Shown: positions 12,600 through 21,566 of the stretch, piece by piece | How the letters are laid out: every line of letters starts with the position of its first letter | Numbering within the stretch: the first letter of the stretch is position 1 | IMG/VR virus record: IMGVR_UViG_3300049736_000762 | Coordinates: 1-26,991 of that record | Strand: one strand, 5' to 3' | Source: a virus | DNA length: 26,991 nucleotides | Made by a program: the position numbers and the translations under genes | Notes under the pieces: model-generated | What the model saw: the letters and a program-made list of their open reading frames with translations, nothing else | Told to the model about the DNA's origin: nothing | Databases searched by the model: none

Positions 12600-12807
12600 A
12601 TTTAGAGATAAATATTTAAATACACCGGAAATTGACTTCAAAAACCATTGGGCTGTAGGTATAGAATATGCTATTATCGGAAGTCGCGGTGATAAATATA
12701 CAGTAGGATTCACAGATAAAGGTTTTTCGTGTGAGTGTATTGGTATGGCGGTGCACGGAAAATGCAAACATACAAAGGAAATATCTGATAAATGGCTATT
12801 AGCCTAG
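12589..12807 (+). CDS. Small SWIM zinc-finger protein
   Basis: A 72-aa protein ending in FSCECIGMAVHGKCKHTKEI, a CxC-x(n)-CxH arrangement that defines the SWIM zinc finger, found in DNA- and protein-binding proteins. The preceding part (YTVGFTDKGF) is the usual beta hairpin before the finger. A stand-alone SWIM domain could be a DNA-binding regulator. ATG 12589 has AAGGAG upstream. It overlaps both neighbours. Confidence 0.78.
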   Translation: MPRKFRDKYLNTPEIDFKNHWAVGIEYAIIGSRGDKYTVGFTDKGFSCECIGMAVHGKCKHTKEISDKWLLA

Positions 12808-13607
12808 AACGGTTATTTATAGCAATTGCAACGCATCTATTAACAATATATTTCATCTATAATAGTTTATATGTAGATGGAGCATATTGGTTATTGGCTC
12901 TTGTTTTTGTTTTATTTCAATTACAAGTTTTTTCTGTATCTACTTTTTTGCATAAGGGTGTGACACACGGTGTGTGGAGATTTAAATCTAAATTTGTAGA
13001 ACAATGCATTGTTATTTACTTGTCAATATCTGGACATATATTTCCTGGTGGTCCATTAGATTGGGCCGTTGTTCATAGATTGCACCACGATCATTTAGAT
13101 GATGATCTTGATTCTCATAGTCCTTCTAGAATAGGAATGTTAGCTGCGCACTTTCACCTATGGAAACCTACGCCTGAACATGCCACTGTAGAACGTAAAG
13201 TTTATTTCGATTTACTAAAAAATTATAGACATTTATGGATTTTTAGTAAATATCCAAAATCAATAGCTTTTGCATTATGGTCTATTATTATTGTTATTTT
13301 TGGTATAGAAGGTCTTAGTATATTAGCTGCAGCATCATTTATAGAATTTCATGGATTAGGTGTTATTGACGCATATGCGCATACAAAAAAAGACGAAACT
13401 CGTAATGTACCATGGTATGTGTGGATTATAGGTTTTAATGATCCTGAAGCAATGTATCATAAAGAACATCATGAACATCCATACGCATATAGTTTTAATC
13501 CAGGATGGTTAGATTATCCATCCCGCCTCATGGAATTATTTGCAAAATGTGGTATAGTTGATATTAAAGGCAAAAAATTGGATGTATTATCTAAGACTAA
13601 AGTTTGA
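12792..13607 (+). CDS. Membrane fatty acid desaturase (acyl-CoA delta-9 type)
   Basis: A 271-aa membrane di-iron desaturase. The three histidine boxes are intact: HKGVTH (H54, H59), HRLHH (H95, H98, H99) and HKEHH (H223, H226, H227). A further IDAYAH (H197) lies where stearoyl-CoA desaturases carry an additional iron ligand. Hydrophobic stretches at about residues 5-50 and 158-185 fit membrane insertion. The enzyme would place a cis double bond in acyl chains of host lipids, using host electron carriers. It overlaps the SWIM gene by 16 nt and the next gene by 26 nt. Confidence 0.9.
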   Translation: MAISLERLFIAIATHLLTIYFIYNSLYVDGAYWLLALVFVLFQLQVFSVSTFLHKGVTHGVWRFKSKFVEQCIVIYLSISGHIFPGGPLDWAVVHRLHHDHLDDDLDSHSPSRIGMLAAHFHLWKPTPEHATVERKVYFDLLKNYRHLWIFSKYPKSIAFALWSIIIVIFGIEGLSILAAASFIEFHGLGVIDAYAHTKKDETRNVPWYVWIIGFNDPEAMYHKEHHEHPYAYSFNPGWLDYPSRLMELFAKCGIVDIKGKKLDVLSKTKV

Positions 13608-14543: not shown

Positions 14544-14585
14544 TGCGTTTTTAGGGTTTACAAAGCTGAAAAAACAGGGTATAAT
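14544..14585 (+). promoter_or_regulatory. Promoter P5 with T-tract upstream element
   Basis: TGCGTTTTT at 14544-14552, -35 TTTACA at 14557-14562 (one mismatch from the usual TGTACA), 17-nt spacer, TATAAT at 14580-14585. AGATCTATAAAATG and GAGGAG follow; the in-leader ATG is not the gene start. Confidence 0.85.
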
Positions 14586-14615: not shown

Positions 14616-14927
14616 ATGTTTAAGTTAGAAAAAGGTTTAGTAGATCTCATCAACGCCCAGCGCGCTGAAGCTGAAGAGTTCAGCAAGCAGCCTGGCTGTT
14701 TCATGGGTATGATGCCCGAAGCAACAGAGCTCGAGTACTGGGAGTCACGTGTTCCTAGTGGTACTCTTAAAGAGTACAACCGCATCGAGCTCGAGGAGAG
14801 TGTCTACTATGCTGTAGCAGATGCTTACAGCAAAGGCTACGCTCGTAGCATGCGCCTCAGTGTGTGGACTGACGAGGAGCTTGAGGCTGAGCTTGAAGCT
14901 GCATGTAAAATGCTAGAGGTGGCATAA
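14616..14927 (+). CDS. Hypothetical 103-aa acidic protein, GC-rich gene
   Basis: First gene after promoter P5 (GAGGAG, ATG 14616). The 103-aa protein is very acidic and helical, with long Glu/Ala/Leu stretches (ELEAELEAACKMLEVA at the end). Codon use differs from its neighbours: 94 of the 180 bases at 14641-14820 are G or C by hand count, while many neighbouring genes are near one third. It uses CGC, GAG, CTC and AAC freely. This suggests recent transfer or selection for high expression. Function unknown. Confidence 0.78.
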   Translation: MFKLEKGLVDLINAQRAEAEEFSKQPGCFMGMMPEATELEYWESRVPSGTLKEYNRIELEESVYYAVADAYSKGYARSMRLSVWTDEELEAELEAACKMLEVA

Positions 14928-15175
14928 TGGTACGAACAACTGAAATATATAATGACGAAGGAGAACTCAGTTATTTCACTACTCACCCTTACGACGAATA
15001 TAATGGTGATGGTGTAAGCTTAACAGATAAGTTTGCAGAAGTTAGAGAGGAATACGAGAAGAACGGTAAAAATATTCTAAATATGCGTACTTATTATAAT
15101 AGTGGATTTAATCATACTACTCAACAAGACGAAAAAGAACCTGAGTTTGGTGTCGAGGTTGAGTGGATATGGTAA
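14927..15175 (+). CDS. Hypothetical 82-aa protein
   Basis: ATG 14927 overlaps the preceding TAA by one base (ATAATGG), so translation is coupled. The product (MVRTTEIYNDEGELSYFTTH...) is acidic and ends in VEVEWIW. No family recognised. Its stop is followed directly by the noncoding structured region. Confidence 0.7.
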   Translation: MVRTTEIYNDEGELSYFTTHPYDEYNGDGVSLTDKFAEVREEYEKNGKNILNMRTYYNSGFNHTTQQDEKEPEFGVEVEWIW

Positions 15176-15473
15176 AAAGTTTAGTAAGGAAGCTCCTGTC
15201 TCGCTCCTCTCTCAGTTGATGCTTTCTTACTAATCCTATAGGTGAACGGACCACCGCCTAGCAATAACGCAAAAATGGTCCAAGTCGAGCGATAAACGCG
15301 GTTAAGCCTGTAAACGACTGAAAAATTAAGACGCAGGTGGGAACTATAGAGCGCCCTCATTAGAAAGGCTTCAACCATGGAGATGCACCTCTCATTTATA
15401 CGAGAGCTCTGCTTAATAAGGGTCACTCCCTAATAGTGCATGTGGGGCCACGGTTAGCCCCACCCGGTTTTTT
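15176..15473 (+). ncRNA. Structured noncoding RNA of unknown family
   Basis: About 300 nt with no credible ORF and a higher G+C content than most of the window. Helices read by eye: a 13-bp stem (15181-15193 with 15221-15233, one G-U); GGACCA/TGGTCC (15248-15253 with 15276-15281); AGTCG/CGACT (15283-15287 with 15315-15319) enclosing a GCG/CGC hairpin; GCCTG with CAGGT (15306-15310 with 15334-15338), which crosses the AGTCG helix and would form a pseudoknot; CTCTC/GAGAG (15389-15393 with 15402-15406); CACT/AGTG (15424-15427 with 15435-15438). It ends in a terminator hairpin at 15442-15473. tRNA-Arg begins at the next base. It does not match what I know of tmRNA, RNase P RNA or 6S RNA. It could be a regulatory RNA, a riboswitch-like leader or a large ornate phage RNA. 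Boundaries are approximate; transcription probably comes from P5. Confidence 0.7.
15442..15473 (+). terminator. Terminator hairpin at the end of the ncRNA
   Basis: GTGGGGC (15442-15448) pairs perfectly with GCCCCAC (15457-15463) around an 8-nt loop. CCGG and then TTTTTT (15468-15473) follow. The T run touches the first base of the tRNA, so the tRNA would be made by read-through or from another start. Confidence 0.78.
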
Positions 15474-15550
15474 GGTTCCGTAGCTCAGATGGATAGAGCA
15501 ACAGCCTTCTAAGCTGTGGGTCGAGGGTTCGAATCCTTCCGGAATCGCCA
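15474..15550 (+). tRNA. tRNA-Arg (anticodon UCU)
   Basis: A full cloverleaf. Acceptor stem GGTTCCG pairs with CGGAATC (one G-U). D-arm GCTC/GAGC. Anticodon stem ACAGC/GCTGT with loop CTTCTAA, so the anticodon is TCT at 15508-15510. T-arm GAGGG-TTCGAAT-CCTTC with one G-U. Discriminator G and an encoded CCA at 15548-15550. It reads AGA/AGG, and AGA is common in these AT-rich phage genes, so it would support their translation. T4 also carries a tRNA-Arg of this type. Confidence 0.96.
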
Positions 15551-16037: not shown

Positions 16038-16068
16038 GGTGTACAAATGCTAAAAAACAGGGTATAAT
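16028..16068 (+). promoter_or_regulatory. Promoter P6 with T-tract upstream element
   Basis: TGCGTTTTTT at 16028-16037, -35 TGTACA at 16040-16045, 17-nt spacer, TATAAT at 16063-16068 preceded by GGG. AGATCTATAAAATG and GAGGAG follow. Confidence 0.88.
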
Positions 16069-17237: not shown

Positions 17238-17864
17238 ATGAGAAGTGTTTTGTTAATGGCAGGTGTATTAGGTCTATCTGCGTGTAGTGAAAAGTTGCCA
17301 CCAAATTTGGCAATATCAGAAAAAGAATTTGAATATCGTGTTGAACAGGTAGAGAACCAAATCGATGATATGCCTAAATGGTATACCGATATTCCAAAAG
17401 AAGATGAAGCTGTATATGCAGTCGGTACTGCAGTCACACCAGATCTTCAACTCGCAGTAGATATAGCAGTACTATCAGCTAAGACTACACTAGCCGATCG
17501 TGTTGATAGCCGCATCAGATCTCAGCTAAAAACTTTTAAATCTAAATTAGGCGCTACTGATTTTGATTCTAATGTTGCTGTTGAGTTTGAACAAGTAACA
17601 CGTAATTTGATTGCAGACGCAGACGTGGCTGGTTATACAATCAAAGAAAATGTCATTGTACAAAACGGTACACAATATCGATCATACGTTTTATTAGAGT
17701 ATCGTAATGAAGTTGCAGCAAATGTAATTCGCACTAGAGTCGCTAAAAATGCTGCACTATTATCTAAGCTTAAATCTACTAAAGCTTGGAAAGAACTCGA
17801 TGATAATGTAGAAGCTCAAAACGAGGCCGATCTAAAAGAACTAGAGGTACTTGCCGATTCATGA
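17238..17864 (+). CDS. LPP20-family lipoprotein
   Basis: ATG 17238 is chosen because GGAG (17228-17231) lies at the right distance; an ATG at 17226 would overlap it. The 208-aa protein has a lipoprotein signal with lipobox LSAC (Cys16). The mature protein has MPKWYTDIPKEDEAVYAVGT followed by AKTTLADRV, the PxWy...YAvG...A...A pattern of LPP20-like lipoproteins. These bacterial outer-membrane or surface lipoproteins have no settled function. A phage copy could alter the host envelope or block superinfection. It overlaps the fabF-like gene by 4 nt. Confidence 0.8.
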   Translation: MRSVLLMAGVLGLSACSEKLPPNLAISEKEFEYRVEQVENQIDDMPKWYTDIPKEDEAVYAVGTAVTPDLQLAVDIAVLSAKTTLADRVDSRIRSQLKTFKSKLGATDFDSNVAVEFEQVTRNLIADADVAGYTIKENVIVQNGTQYRSYVLLEYRNEVAANVIRTRVAKNAALLSKLKSTKAWKELDDNVEAQNEADLKELEVLADS

Positions 17865-19006
17865 ATCGAATAGCCGTTACTGGTATTGGTATGATCGATG
17901 CGTTGGGCAATAATCCTGTCCAATGTTTCGATAACCTATTAAATGACAAAACCTATGATAGACATTTTGATGATATCGTTTTACCTAGAAAATCAGTAAA
18001 GGTAGATCGATGTCACATGCCTACTACTGACATTATTATACCAGAAGATTTTAATCCAAAGCTATTAAGATATATGCCTCGTTCTATGCATACCGCGTTA
18101 CATAGTGTAAATGCCGCATTAAAGGACGCTAGTGTACTGCACAGTAGTAACGTAGGTGTATTTTATTCTACGTGTACTGCAAAAGATGGAATGTATGAAG
18201 CAATTGTAATTAAAGAAAAACTTCACCCACTGTATTCTTTAAATCTTCCAGTAGATTCAAGCGCAAGTATGATATCGCAACATTGGGGATTTACTGGAAT
18301 TAATTTTGCAGCGCAGTCTGCTTGCGCAACTGGTCTCGTCACTATTGATATAGCTATGAAATATTTAAATGATTATGATTATGTGATATGTGGAGGATCA
18401 GATAATGGTGTCAATGAAGTAGATCTTGATGTGTTTAGTTCTTTAAGAGCATTAGGCAATAAATCAATGCCATTCGATGATGATCGATCAGGGTTTGTTA
18501 TGGGAGAAGGTGCAGGTTGTCTAATACTAGAAACTGAAGAAAAAGCTAGGGCGAGAGGAGCACGAATACATGCTTATCTCCATCCTGTAGCTCATGCTTC
18601 GGATGCCTTTAATCGTACTAGTCCAAGTGGTGTTGGTGCACGAACTACTATGCATAATGCTTTAGTAAGTGCAGAAGTAGATACAGTTGACTATGTAAAT
18701 GCTCATGGTACATCAACTCCGGTTGGTGATAAAGTAGAGTATGAAGCTATTCAAGATATAGGTGATTTATTAGTTACTTCAAATAAAGGAAAAATTGGCC
18801 ATACGTTTGCTGCAGCTGGAATTTTAGAAACAATTTATTCAATTTTATCTATACAACATGGTATAATACCGCACACCCATAATTGCATAAATACAGAGTA
18901 TAAAAACATAGTAAAATCTCCAATTAAAACAGATGTTGATTTTGTTTTAAATAATTCATTTGGCTTTGGTGGTAAATGTGCTTCGATGGTCATAGGTGTA
19001 CAATGA
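17861..19006 (+). CDS. fabF: Beta-ketoacyl-ACP synthase (FabF/KAS II-like)
   Basis: A 381-aa thiolase-fold condensing enzyme, close to the usual 410 aa of FabF. Catalytic residues are intact: Cys155 in AAQSACATG, His282 in NAHGTSTPVGD, and Lys309 and His314 in SNKGKIGHTFAAAG. PFDDDRSGFVMGEGAG (204-219) and NNSFGFGGKCAS near the C-terminus are also typical. It would extend acyl-ACP chains by two carbons with malonyl-ACP and host ACP; in E. coli FabF makes cis-vaccenate and controls chain composition. It lies between a lipoprotein and a 2OG oxygenase, overlapping both by 4 nt. No ACP gene is visible in the window. Confidence 0.92.
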   Translation: MNRIAVTGIGMIDALGNNPVQCFDNLLNDKTYDRHFDDIVLPRKSVKVDRCHMPTTDIIIPEDFNPKLLRYMPRSMHTALHSVNAALKDASVLHSSNVGVFYSTCTAKDGMYEAIVIKEKLHPLYSLNLPVDSSASMISQHWGFTGINFAAQSACATGLVTIDIAMKYLNDYDYVICGGSDNGVNEVDLDVFSSLRALGNKSMPFDDDRSGFVMGEGAGCLILETEEKARARGARIHAYLHPVAHASDAFNRTSPSGVGARTTMHNALVSAEVDTVDYVNAHGTSTPVGDKVEYEAIQDIGDLLVTSNKGKIGHTFAAAGILETIYSILSIQHGIIPHTHNCINTEYKNIVKSPIKTDVDFVLNNSFGFGGKCASMVIGVQ

Positions 19007-20164: not shown

Positions 20165-20206
20165 TGCGTTTTAGGCATGTACAAACGGCTAAAACTGTGG
20201 TAGAAT
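20165..20206 (+). promoter_or_regulatory. Promoter P8 with T-tract and inverted repeat
   Basis: TGCGTTTT at 20165-20172, -35 TGTACA at 20178-20183, 17-nt spacer, -10 TAGAAT at 20201-20206 after TGG. TTTTAG and CTAAAA form a dyad around the -35. AGATCTATAAAATG and GAGGAG follow. Confidence 0.85.
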
Positions 20207-20241
20207 AGATCTATAAAATGAAACTTAGCTGAGGAGCTACA

Positions 20242-20436
20242 ATGTCTATTACAAAATCACACGCTTACAAATATGGCGAATTAAAAGTTGCAGCTGAGGT
20301 TGCAGCTAACGCTATGTTAAATTTTAAACATCTTAATGATCGTCTTCTTACTGAATTCGAAATTAAATTTCTTGAGAGTCGTGCACAATCTGTACTCGAT
20401 TTGATTAAAGAACAAGACGAGCGAGGTGCAGCATAA
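20242..20436 (+). CDS. Hypothetical 64-aa protein
   Basis: First gene after promoter P8, with GAGGAG before ATG 20242. The 64-aa product (MSITKSHAYKYGELKVAAEV...) is an alanine- and leucine-rich helical protein. No family recognised. Its stop shares one base with the next ATG. Confidence 0.75.
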   Translation: MSITKSHAYKYGELKVAAEVAANAMLNFKHLNDRLLTEFEIKFLESRAQSVLDLIKEQDERGAA

Positions 20437-21566
20437 TGGCTATGCGGAAAAAACAAAAGAAATTACCTCGTCGTAATCGTACTGGATTGGCAGCTGCTCC
20501 TCTTGACAAAGGGTTTGAAGCAGTACAATCCTATTTTCAAACTGAAGTATCGAATGCAGATATATCAAAGGTGCTAAAAGCATATATTAAAGAAAAACTT
20601 AAAAACTCTGCTAATAAAAATTATGTTCTTGCTTGTCCAGAATATAAATTTACTATGCCATATCAAGCTGCTACTGCTTTTTGGTTAACACATGCACCAA
20701 AAAAAGATAATGATGATCGCACTCGCTCATACTCAGATGCTTTATCAAAATATCTTTCTAAGCTTGTAACCATAGGAAAAGATTTATATTTCGAAAAACA
20801 AGCTAAGCTAAAAGATTCTGCAGCTATCAAATCAATCTCTCCTATGGAAAGATTGCAGCGCAAGATTAGTAATACTATTATGCAAGATCTTCTCGATCTT
20901 GAAGATAAATGGATTGAAGGTGAAGATGCTACCTTAGATCTATACCAAGAATTTAGGCGTCATGGTTTACCAAATTCTGCAACCAAAACTGTTCGTTATG
21001 TAGTCGATGGTTGGTTGTTAGATTACAATGATGCCTATACGAAGGCGTGTCCTGATGCAGTTGAGGGTTATTCACACTTAAGTCGCGTGCAATTACGTAA
21101 ACGTGTACAAGCATGTGAATCAATGCTAGCTGATCTTGACCGTCTTCAGTCTGCTGCAAAGGCTGTACGTAAATCACGTATTAAAAAGCCAAAAGCAGCA
21201 GACAAGCAAGTTACAAAACTCAAGTACAAAAAAGAGGATCATGACTACAAGATCGTATCTGTAGCTCCTCTCTCGGTGATCGGTAGTCATCGCCTCTTTA
21301 CCTTTAATGTGAAAACACGGGTAATTACTGAGTTTGTAACTTCATCCGCAAAGGGCTTCGAAGTTAGTGGTACTACTTTGAAAAATATTGATACATCATT
21401 GAGTAGATCTACTCGACTTCGAAAGCCCGATGCATTTCTTCCTATTGTTCTTAGTAAGACTACTAAGCAAATTGATAATGAATGGAAATCACTCACAACA
21501 AAAACAACTGTACCTAATGGTCGAATGAGTGTCGATACGGTACTATTAAAGGTATTGGATAAATGA
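20436..21566 (+). CDS. Hypothetical 376-aa basic protein upstream of gp33
   Basis: A 376-aa protein with a very basic start (MAMRKKQKKLPRRNRTGLAA), a helical middle (PMERLQRKISNTIMQDLLDL, QLRKRVQACESMLADLDRLQ) and another basic stretch (KSRIKKPKAADKQ) before a beta-rich C-terminal third. The composition suggests nucleic-acid binding. It lies where T4 has other replication/transcription genes next to 33 and 32, but it is not recognisably gp59 or DsbA. It is probably a conserved marine T4-like gene. Coupled to gp33 by an ATGA overlap. Confidence 0.72.
   Translation: MAMRKKQKKLPRRNRTGLAAAPLDKGFEAVQSYFQTEVSNADISKVLKAYIKEKLKNSANKNYVLACPEYKFTMPYQAATAFWLTHAPKKDNDDRTRSYSDALSKYLSKLVTIGKDLYFEKQAKLKDSAAIKSISPMERLQRKISNTIMQDLLDLEDKWIEGEDATLDLYQEFRRHGLPNSATKTVRYVVDGWLLDYNDAYTKACPDAVEGYSHLSRVQLRKRVQACESMLADLDRLQSAAKAVRKSRIKKPKAADKQVTKLKYKKEDHDYKIVSVAPLSVIGSHRLFTFNVKTRVITEFVTSSAKGFEVSGTTLKNIDTSLSRSTRLRKPDAFLPIVLSKTTKQIDNEWKSLTTKTTVPNGRMSVDTVLLKVLDK

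Follow-up and report, generated by a model that had tools for sequence, protein, structure and literature searches.

A conserved double-pseudoknot RNA with accessory modules in uncultured marine phages

We identified a conserved non-coding RNA in a marine T4-like phage and in many related viral sequences. Computation shows that its core of about 90 nt (module A) folds into a double pseudoknot, is conserved and does not encode protein. It also shows that the RNA is present in one copy per record, while its position shifts among promoter-proximal leaders, tRNA clusters and the 3′ ends of transcription units. The stretch analyzed here, referred to as the window, comprises 26,991 nt of viral record IMGVR_UViG_3300049736_000762.

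The RNA lies in a gap (15176-15473) flanked by an 82-aa ORF (14927-15175) and by tRNA-Arg(tct), and two small genes on the same strand (14616-14927 and 14927-15175) separate it from the closest good upstream promoter (Table 1). An earlier note, made from the sequence alone, had claimed that the gap contains no plausible gene, that it is GC-richer than most of the window and that it encodes an undescribed structured RNA. All three claims held. Each of the plus-strand frames of the gap was interrupted by stops, no frame was conserved in the homologues, and the longest ORF was antisense (15181-15426, 81 aa). The GC content of the gap was 0.45-0.46, compared with 0.28-0.39 for most neighbouring stretches, though gene 14616-14927 was equally GC-rich. 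Support for a structured RNA was added by comparison of homologues. The folding energy of the 298 nt was unremarkable (z-score = -0.54); single-sequence thermodynamics was therefore uninformative, and the structure was shown by comparative evidence.

Table 1. Positions in the window of the RNA core, its helices, the accessory modules and flanking signals.
Feature	Position	Strand	Support or remark
sigma70-like promoter TTTACA-17-TATAAT	14557..14585	+	closest good promoter 5′ of the RNA
Module H, 13-bp hairpin 15181-15193/15221-15233	15178..15235	+	20 homologues
Module H loop, C/U-rich TCTCGCTCCTCTCTC	15199-15213	+	nearly invariant, 20 homologues
Module C, H-type pseudoknot, 42 nt	15240..15281	+	pairing supported by few sequence types
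Core module A, double-pseudoknot RNA, ~90 nt	15283..15371	+	67-sequence alignment, pair counts, covariance model
P1	15283-15287/15315-15319	+	core A helix
P3 hairpin	15289-15291/15297-15299	+	core A helix
P2	15306-15311/15333-15338	+	core A helix, crosses P1
P4	15339-15341/15354-15356	+	core A helix
P5	15349-15352/15368-15371	+	core A helix, crosses P4
Module D, hairpin CTCTC/GAGAG 15389-15393/15402-15406, enclosed by GCA/TGC 15385-15387/15410-15412	15385..15412	+	10 close homologues
Module F, small H-type pseudoknot	15420..15438	+	24 homologues
Hairpin GTGGGGC/GCCCCAC with conserved loop CACGGTTA	15442..15463	+	followed by TTTTTT 15468-15473; terminator-like in the window
tRNA-Arg(tct)	15474-15550	+	immediately 3′ of the RNA

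The core structure was evaluated in an alignment of 67 core sequences (A1), with shuffles and slid structures as controls. Standard pairs occupied 89.1% of the A1 cells, as against 76.3% in the shuffles, and double-sided changes were found in 173 cells as against 54.7. The covariation score of A1 was 0.331, compared with 0.115 for the shuffles and no more than 0.102 for the slid structures. Covariation was present in all five helices; P2, P3 and P4 were paired in 100% of the cells and P1 in 98.5%. P5 was paired in just 59% of the cells because its length and register vary, and its arms (e.g. GCAAGG/CCUUGC, GGUAG/CUACC and GGUUA/UAACC) were plainly complementary once aligned by eye. Many unpaired letters of the core were also conserved (GGUUAAG, AAAAUUAAG and CUCAnnAGAAA), an abundance resembling that of RNAs with a defined three-dimensional core. 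Extra hairpins were tolerated in P3 and at the P4-P5 joint (L036, L127 and L010). A coding region was ruled out, as frames were not conserved among the 82 distinct cores; 44 of these lacked any open plus-strand frame and 59 lacked any open minus-strand frame. In one locus (L161:3231-3377) the A-rich pseudoknot strand of the core was tandemly repeated in GACGTTAAACTAA units, which could be an artefact of assembly or an expansion that the RNA tolerates.

These results also bear on the architecture claimed in the earlier note. The crossing pairs that it proposed, 15283-15287 (AGTCG) with 15315-15319 (CGACT) and 15306-15310 (GCCTG) with 15334-15338 (CAGGT), held at exactly these bases. Its claim of one pseudoknot had to be amended, as P4 and P5 form a second crossing in the core and modules C and F are small pseudoknots. 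Similarly, the proposed single RNA of about 300 nt is better described as a chain of separable modules around the core. The claim of a perfect 13-bp stem held in part: the module H stem is real, with one G-U among its 13 pairs. That the RNA ends in a terminator is now doubtful. A U-tract follows the hairpin upstream of the tRNA in the window and in the nearest relative (L003) but not in most homologues, and this hairpin may therefore belong to module F instead of being a terminator.

The window carries the module string H-C-A-D-F. Homologues keep this order with individual modules being optional, and the order H-C-A-B/E-D-F was kept in almost all loci, the automatic module strings giving few exceptions (e.g. 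HEABF and 'F ... AB'). The stem letters of module H varied with compensation while its loop (UCGCUCCUCUCUCAGU) was invariant or nearly so (n=20). In module C, AGGT/GCCT (15240-15243/15256-15259) crosses GGACCA/TGGTCC (15248-15253/15276-15281). This module is missing from L003, whose flanks join directly; it is present in L198, and diverged copies occur in L031, L036, L126, L143, L187 and L213. Module F consists of GGG/CCC (15420-15422/15428-15430) crossing CAC/GTG (15424-15426/15436-15438); pairing of its stem S2 was complete (100% of cells; n=24), and each of the four pairs showed changes on both sides. Hairpins similar to module D with other stems precede GGCTCTGC elsewhere, and covariation of module D was not formally counted. 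Module B, a pseudoknot similar to the P4-P5 half of module A, and module E are found 3′ of the core. We rejected the automatic count of module B as inflated, since its profile picks up the P4-P5 half of module A as well, and listed the true copies separately. Support for modules C, D and E comes from few distinct sequences. In L057 and L054, D-like hairpins (GCAACCGATAACGTATATCTCGGCTCTGCTCAAT) stand alone, away from the core and 5′ of its promoter, and are possibly 3′ elements of other transcripts.

Relatives were fetched via neighbouring proteins, and a nucleotide search then identified the core in 30 loci including the window. A degenerate core pattern led to 109 viral-contig stretches, with 103 of 105 new loci carrying the core according to a profile search, and a second pattern led to 20 further loci identified with a covariance model. 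Altogether 155 fetched loci carry the core, all of them viral, and some are overlapping stretches of one contig. The 82 distinct core sequences were extracted from this collection. When 84,980 prokaryote species genomes were searched, the core pattern gave 14 matches, none of them convincing by the covariance model. A cellular or prophage origin was rejected, as these matches scored no more than 16.4 bits, nearly all covered the pattern region only, and they were taken as chance. No blastn match was found in isolated phage records with four versions of the query. Thus, the RNA is known only from uncultured viruses. A covariance search of phiM12, Cr30, RHph_I1_18, OC, T4, Melnitz, C48C1 and HTVC008M yielded only weak matches, the best of which in HTVC008M (22.9 bits) was discarded because it sits in an oxygenase gene and its pairs are broken.

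The gp32 protein of the window is closest to its counterparts in Kyanoviridae-like phages, for example C48C1 and Melnitz (56-57% identity), and a 376-aa protein of the window has relatives in phages of Sinorhizobium, Caulobacter and Stenotrophomonas, among others. An alphaproteobacterial host is likely, given the alpha-type tmRNA of one relative (L187), but has not been shown. Two-piece (permuted) tmRNAs of the alphaproteobacterial type were observed at L213:4445-4788, L143:9075-9463, L149:4404-4767 and L187:3772-4096, about 0.8-2.0 kb from the new RNA, with tRNA-Leu and tRNA-Trp in between in three of the four. Two-piece tmRNA was already known in marine phages (PMC9004378).

Covariance model R1 detected the core in 15 of 28 longer records, once in each, including records of 152,719 and 123,332 bases. 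Among 40 further records, 39 contained one core, and the remaining record (L161) contained one copy whose internal tandem repeat was seen as two partial matches. A single core copy was thus present in all 55 carrying records. Second copies suggested in L256 and L270 (17-21 bits) were dismissed as chance, because the weak match of L270 lies inside a gene that appeared clamp-loader-like by eye and nearly the same sequence occurs in L256. Most records are fragments, and a second, diverged copy could lie outside them.

The surroundings of the RNA were compared in 89 contexts, counted per distinct neighbourhood and not per phylogenetic event. A sigma70-like promoter was located no more than 90 nt upstream in 25 of the 89 contexts, compared with 3.6% of random 90-nt stretches, and in 24 of these 25 the -10 box ended 15-21 nt before P1. 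In 37 contexts a tRNA gene adjoined the RNA, with spacings down to 2-17 nt, and about half of the relatives had no neighbouring tRNA; the claim that the RNA lies beside a tRNA therefore held in the window but not for every relative. The RNA formed the 5′ leader of a phrog_11903-family gene in roughly a quarter of the contexts, and in leader contexts the next start codon was often 14-40 nt downstream. A strong terminator comes immediately after the RNA in L161 and L180, ahead of the next gene, and in these loci and L127 the RNA is at the 3′ side of the unit. The neighbours comprised phrog_11903 genes, tRNAs, terminators, a gene that by eye was polyphosphate-kinase-like, and others. The phrog_11903 gene of the window (20436-21566) is preceded by a promoter and a small gene but not by the RNA, which is located 5 kb away. 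This gene encodes the basic 376-aa protein, whose function is unknown; in T4-like phages that infect alphaproteobacteria the gene is conserved a short distance upstream of gp32 or RNase H.

The earlier note had named three outcomes that would refute it: a match to a known Rfam family, a lack of compensatory changes in the helices, or a conserved coding frame. None of these occurred. With Rfam 15 at curated thresholds, the window matched only tRNA and 12 homologous loci matched only tRNA and a separate tmRNA; compensatory changes were abundant in exactly the pseudoknot that it had named; and no frame was conserved across the cores. At E<=2, the L126 region had only tRNAs above threshold. Its observation that the cores of tmRNA, RNase P RNA and 6S RNA are lacking also held. 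These RNAs, group I introns, known ribozymes and riboswitches were rejected as candidates since no Rfam match to them was found. Neither ARAGORN nor Rfam detected tmRNA, including the two-piece form, in the window, and some relatives encode it separately.

The earlier note had further suggested that the RNA recalls the large ornate phage RNAs but differs from them, and this held. GOLLD and ROOL are pseudoknotted phage RNAs of unknown function that are often found near tRNA islands (PMC12286853). They are hundreds of nucleotides long and form cages, whereas the new core has about 90 nt. Their Rfam models matched neither the window nor the homologues, and by these models the new RNA is unrelated to them. 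A second comparison is with RNA C and RNA D of T4 (the species 1 and 2 stable RNAs; rnaC and rnaD), which share with the new RNA a T4-like tRNA cluster and a position directly beside tRNA-Arg. The function of RNA C and RNA D is unknown. Homology was rejected because the core model scored no more than 4.4 bits, which is chance level, over both RNAs and their flanks; the one match in the whole T4 genome (13 bits) lies away from them. The predicted fold of RNA C, long nested hairpins and a tRNA-like TpsiC arm, is also unlike module A. We conclude that these T4 RNAs are positional analogues with no detectable homology to the new RNA. The manA, wcaG and glnA RNAs of marine bacteria and T4-like cyanophages, described as cis elements (PMC2864571), gave no match above threshold; wcaG reached 14.7 bits against a cut-off of 42, outside the core. 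Finally, the CCUCCUCCC motif has been named in the literature (PMC3927594). Alphaproteobacterial (rhizobial) sRNAs with this motif expose anti-Shine-Dalgarno-like hairpin loops similar to that of module H. The module H loop reads CUCGCUCCUCUCUC and differs in being phage-borne and inside a larger chain; this is a resemblance only, and any function read from it would be conjectural.

Because the RNA matches none of the families tested and has a fold of its own, we regard it as a new class; the niche of phage RNAs beside tRNAs was already known. This judgement extends only to the families tested and to open-licence literature, and uncurated marine psRNA/IMES motifs were outside the comparison. 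The finding adds to the few known non-coding RNAs of lytic phages a family absent from Rfam, with unusually clear covariation and two core pseudoknots, that occurs widely, in many uncultured marine phages.

Its single copy and wandering position led us to favour a trans-acting, stable RNA over a cis-regulator of one gene: such a regulator would not wander, and a general stabilizer would not be single-copy. We give this reading a modest preference in the absence of transcript data. The RNA would be made from host-type promoters, probably early in infection. Its release from a precursor is inferred without direct evidence, either through processing of tRNAs that flank it on one side or both, or as an early mRNA's 5′ leader. 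In the window, 5′ processing of tRNA-Arg(tct) would set its 3′ end. The released RNA is further inferred to persist in compact form. How it might act is a weaker inference, again without direct evidence: it could bind a protein or the ribosome as a decoy or as an RNP scaffold, since the conserved letters sit in the folded core and not in an exposed seed. With no known protein partner and no test of the decoy idea, we consider this mode of action rather doubtful. As an idea only, module H may in addition use its C/U-rich loop to pair with Shine-Dalgarno sequences, for instance the AGAGGAG that lies upstream of 14616.

The main alternative to a trans-acting RNA is a cis-acting UTR element that stabilizes its own transcript, protects tRNA precursors against ribonucleases or regulates how the gene after it is translated. 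Compact pseudoknots can block nucleases, and the 25 leader contexts right behind promoters, often with a start codon shortly downstream, are in its favour. Against it, a single copy per record is found despite the many early transcription units of such phages, and what lies next to it varies between unrelated genes, tRNAs and terminators, with the RNA at the 3′ side of the unit in three loci. A constant place before one gene class together with an expression platform, as for a riboswitch or leader, was not found. We consider this alternative unlikely; a cis element needed once per genome is not excluded, however, and cis control also remains possible in the phrog_11903 leader contexts.

A self-cleaving ribozyme or other processing element that separates tRNAs and mRNAs could account for the linked pseudoknots, the highly conserved unpaired letters, the tRNA-rich surroundings and the way in which peripheral hairpins can expand, both in P3 and between P4 and P5. 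However, no Rfam ribozyme family matches, no constant flanking sequence on either side of the core marks a cleavage site, and such an element would be of little use 8-14 nt past a transcription start, making this explanation very unlikely. We judged equally improbable a nascent-transcript antitermination signal resembling HK022 put or the epsC/EAR RNA: the RNA is close behind promoters in many contexts and, in the window, precedes tRNAs as well as a terminator-like hairpin, but the next early promoter there is 570 nt downstream, leaving little to antiterminate, a strong terminator follows at once in L161 and L180, and there is no Rfam match. The same low standing applies to an RNA antitoxin mimic whose pseudoknots occupy a host type III (ToxN-like) or HEPN ribonuclease; ToxI-type antitoxins are also small RNA pseudoknots, T4-family phages face such systems (PMC5772629, PMC5449768) and modules are gained and lost between phages as expected of an arms race, but ToxI consists of repeats of one unit whereas the modules here are single and unlike one another, no toxin gene was noted next to the RNA, no Rfam match was obtained, and a PHROGs search of ten flanking or nearby ORFs revealed no type III toxin.

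A bolder version of the trans-acting reading would describe a new class of RNA, with a single-copy core and interchangeable pseudoknot modules, that serves as an early decoy or scaffold capturing a host RNA-binding machine and moves freely between tRNA clusters and early leaders. This proposal is speculative, and we judge it somewhat less likely than not. A conserved single-copy RNA with a changing neighbourhood makes the phage's need for a free-standing RNA directly testable, and the covariance model provides a means to find the RNA in marine metatranscriptomes.

Inspection of the window revealed nearly identical early-type promoter blocks before small gene groups at 14557-14585, 16040-16068 and about 20178-20207, each consisting of TTTACA or TGTACA, 17 nt, TATAAT or TAGAAT and then AGATCTATAAAATGAAA. 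Two genes appeared by eye to be fatty-acid desaturase-like (12792-13607) and beta-ketoacyl synthase-like (17861-19006), suggesting lipid-related auxiliary genes.
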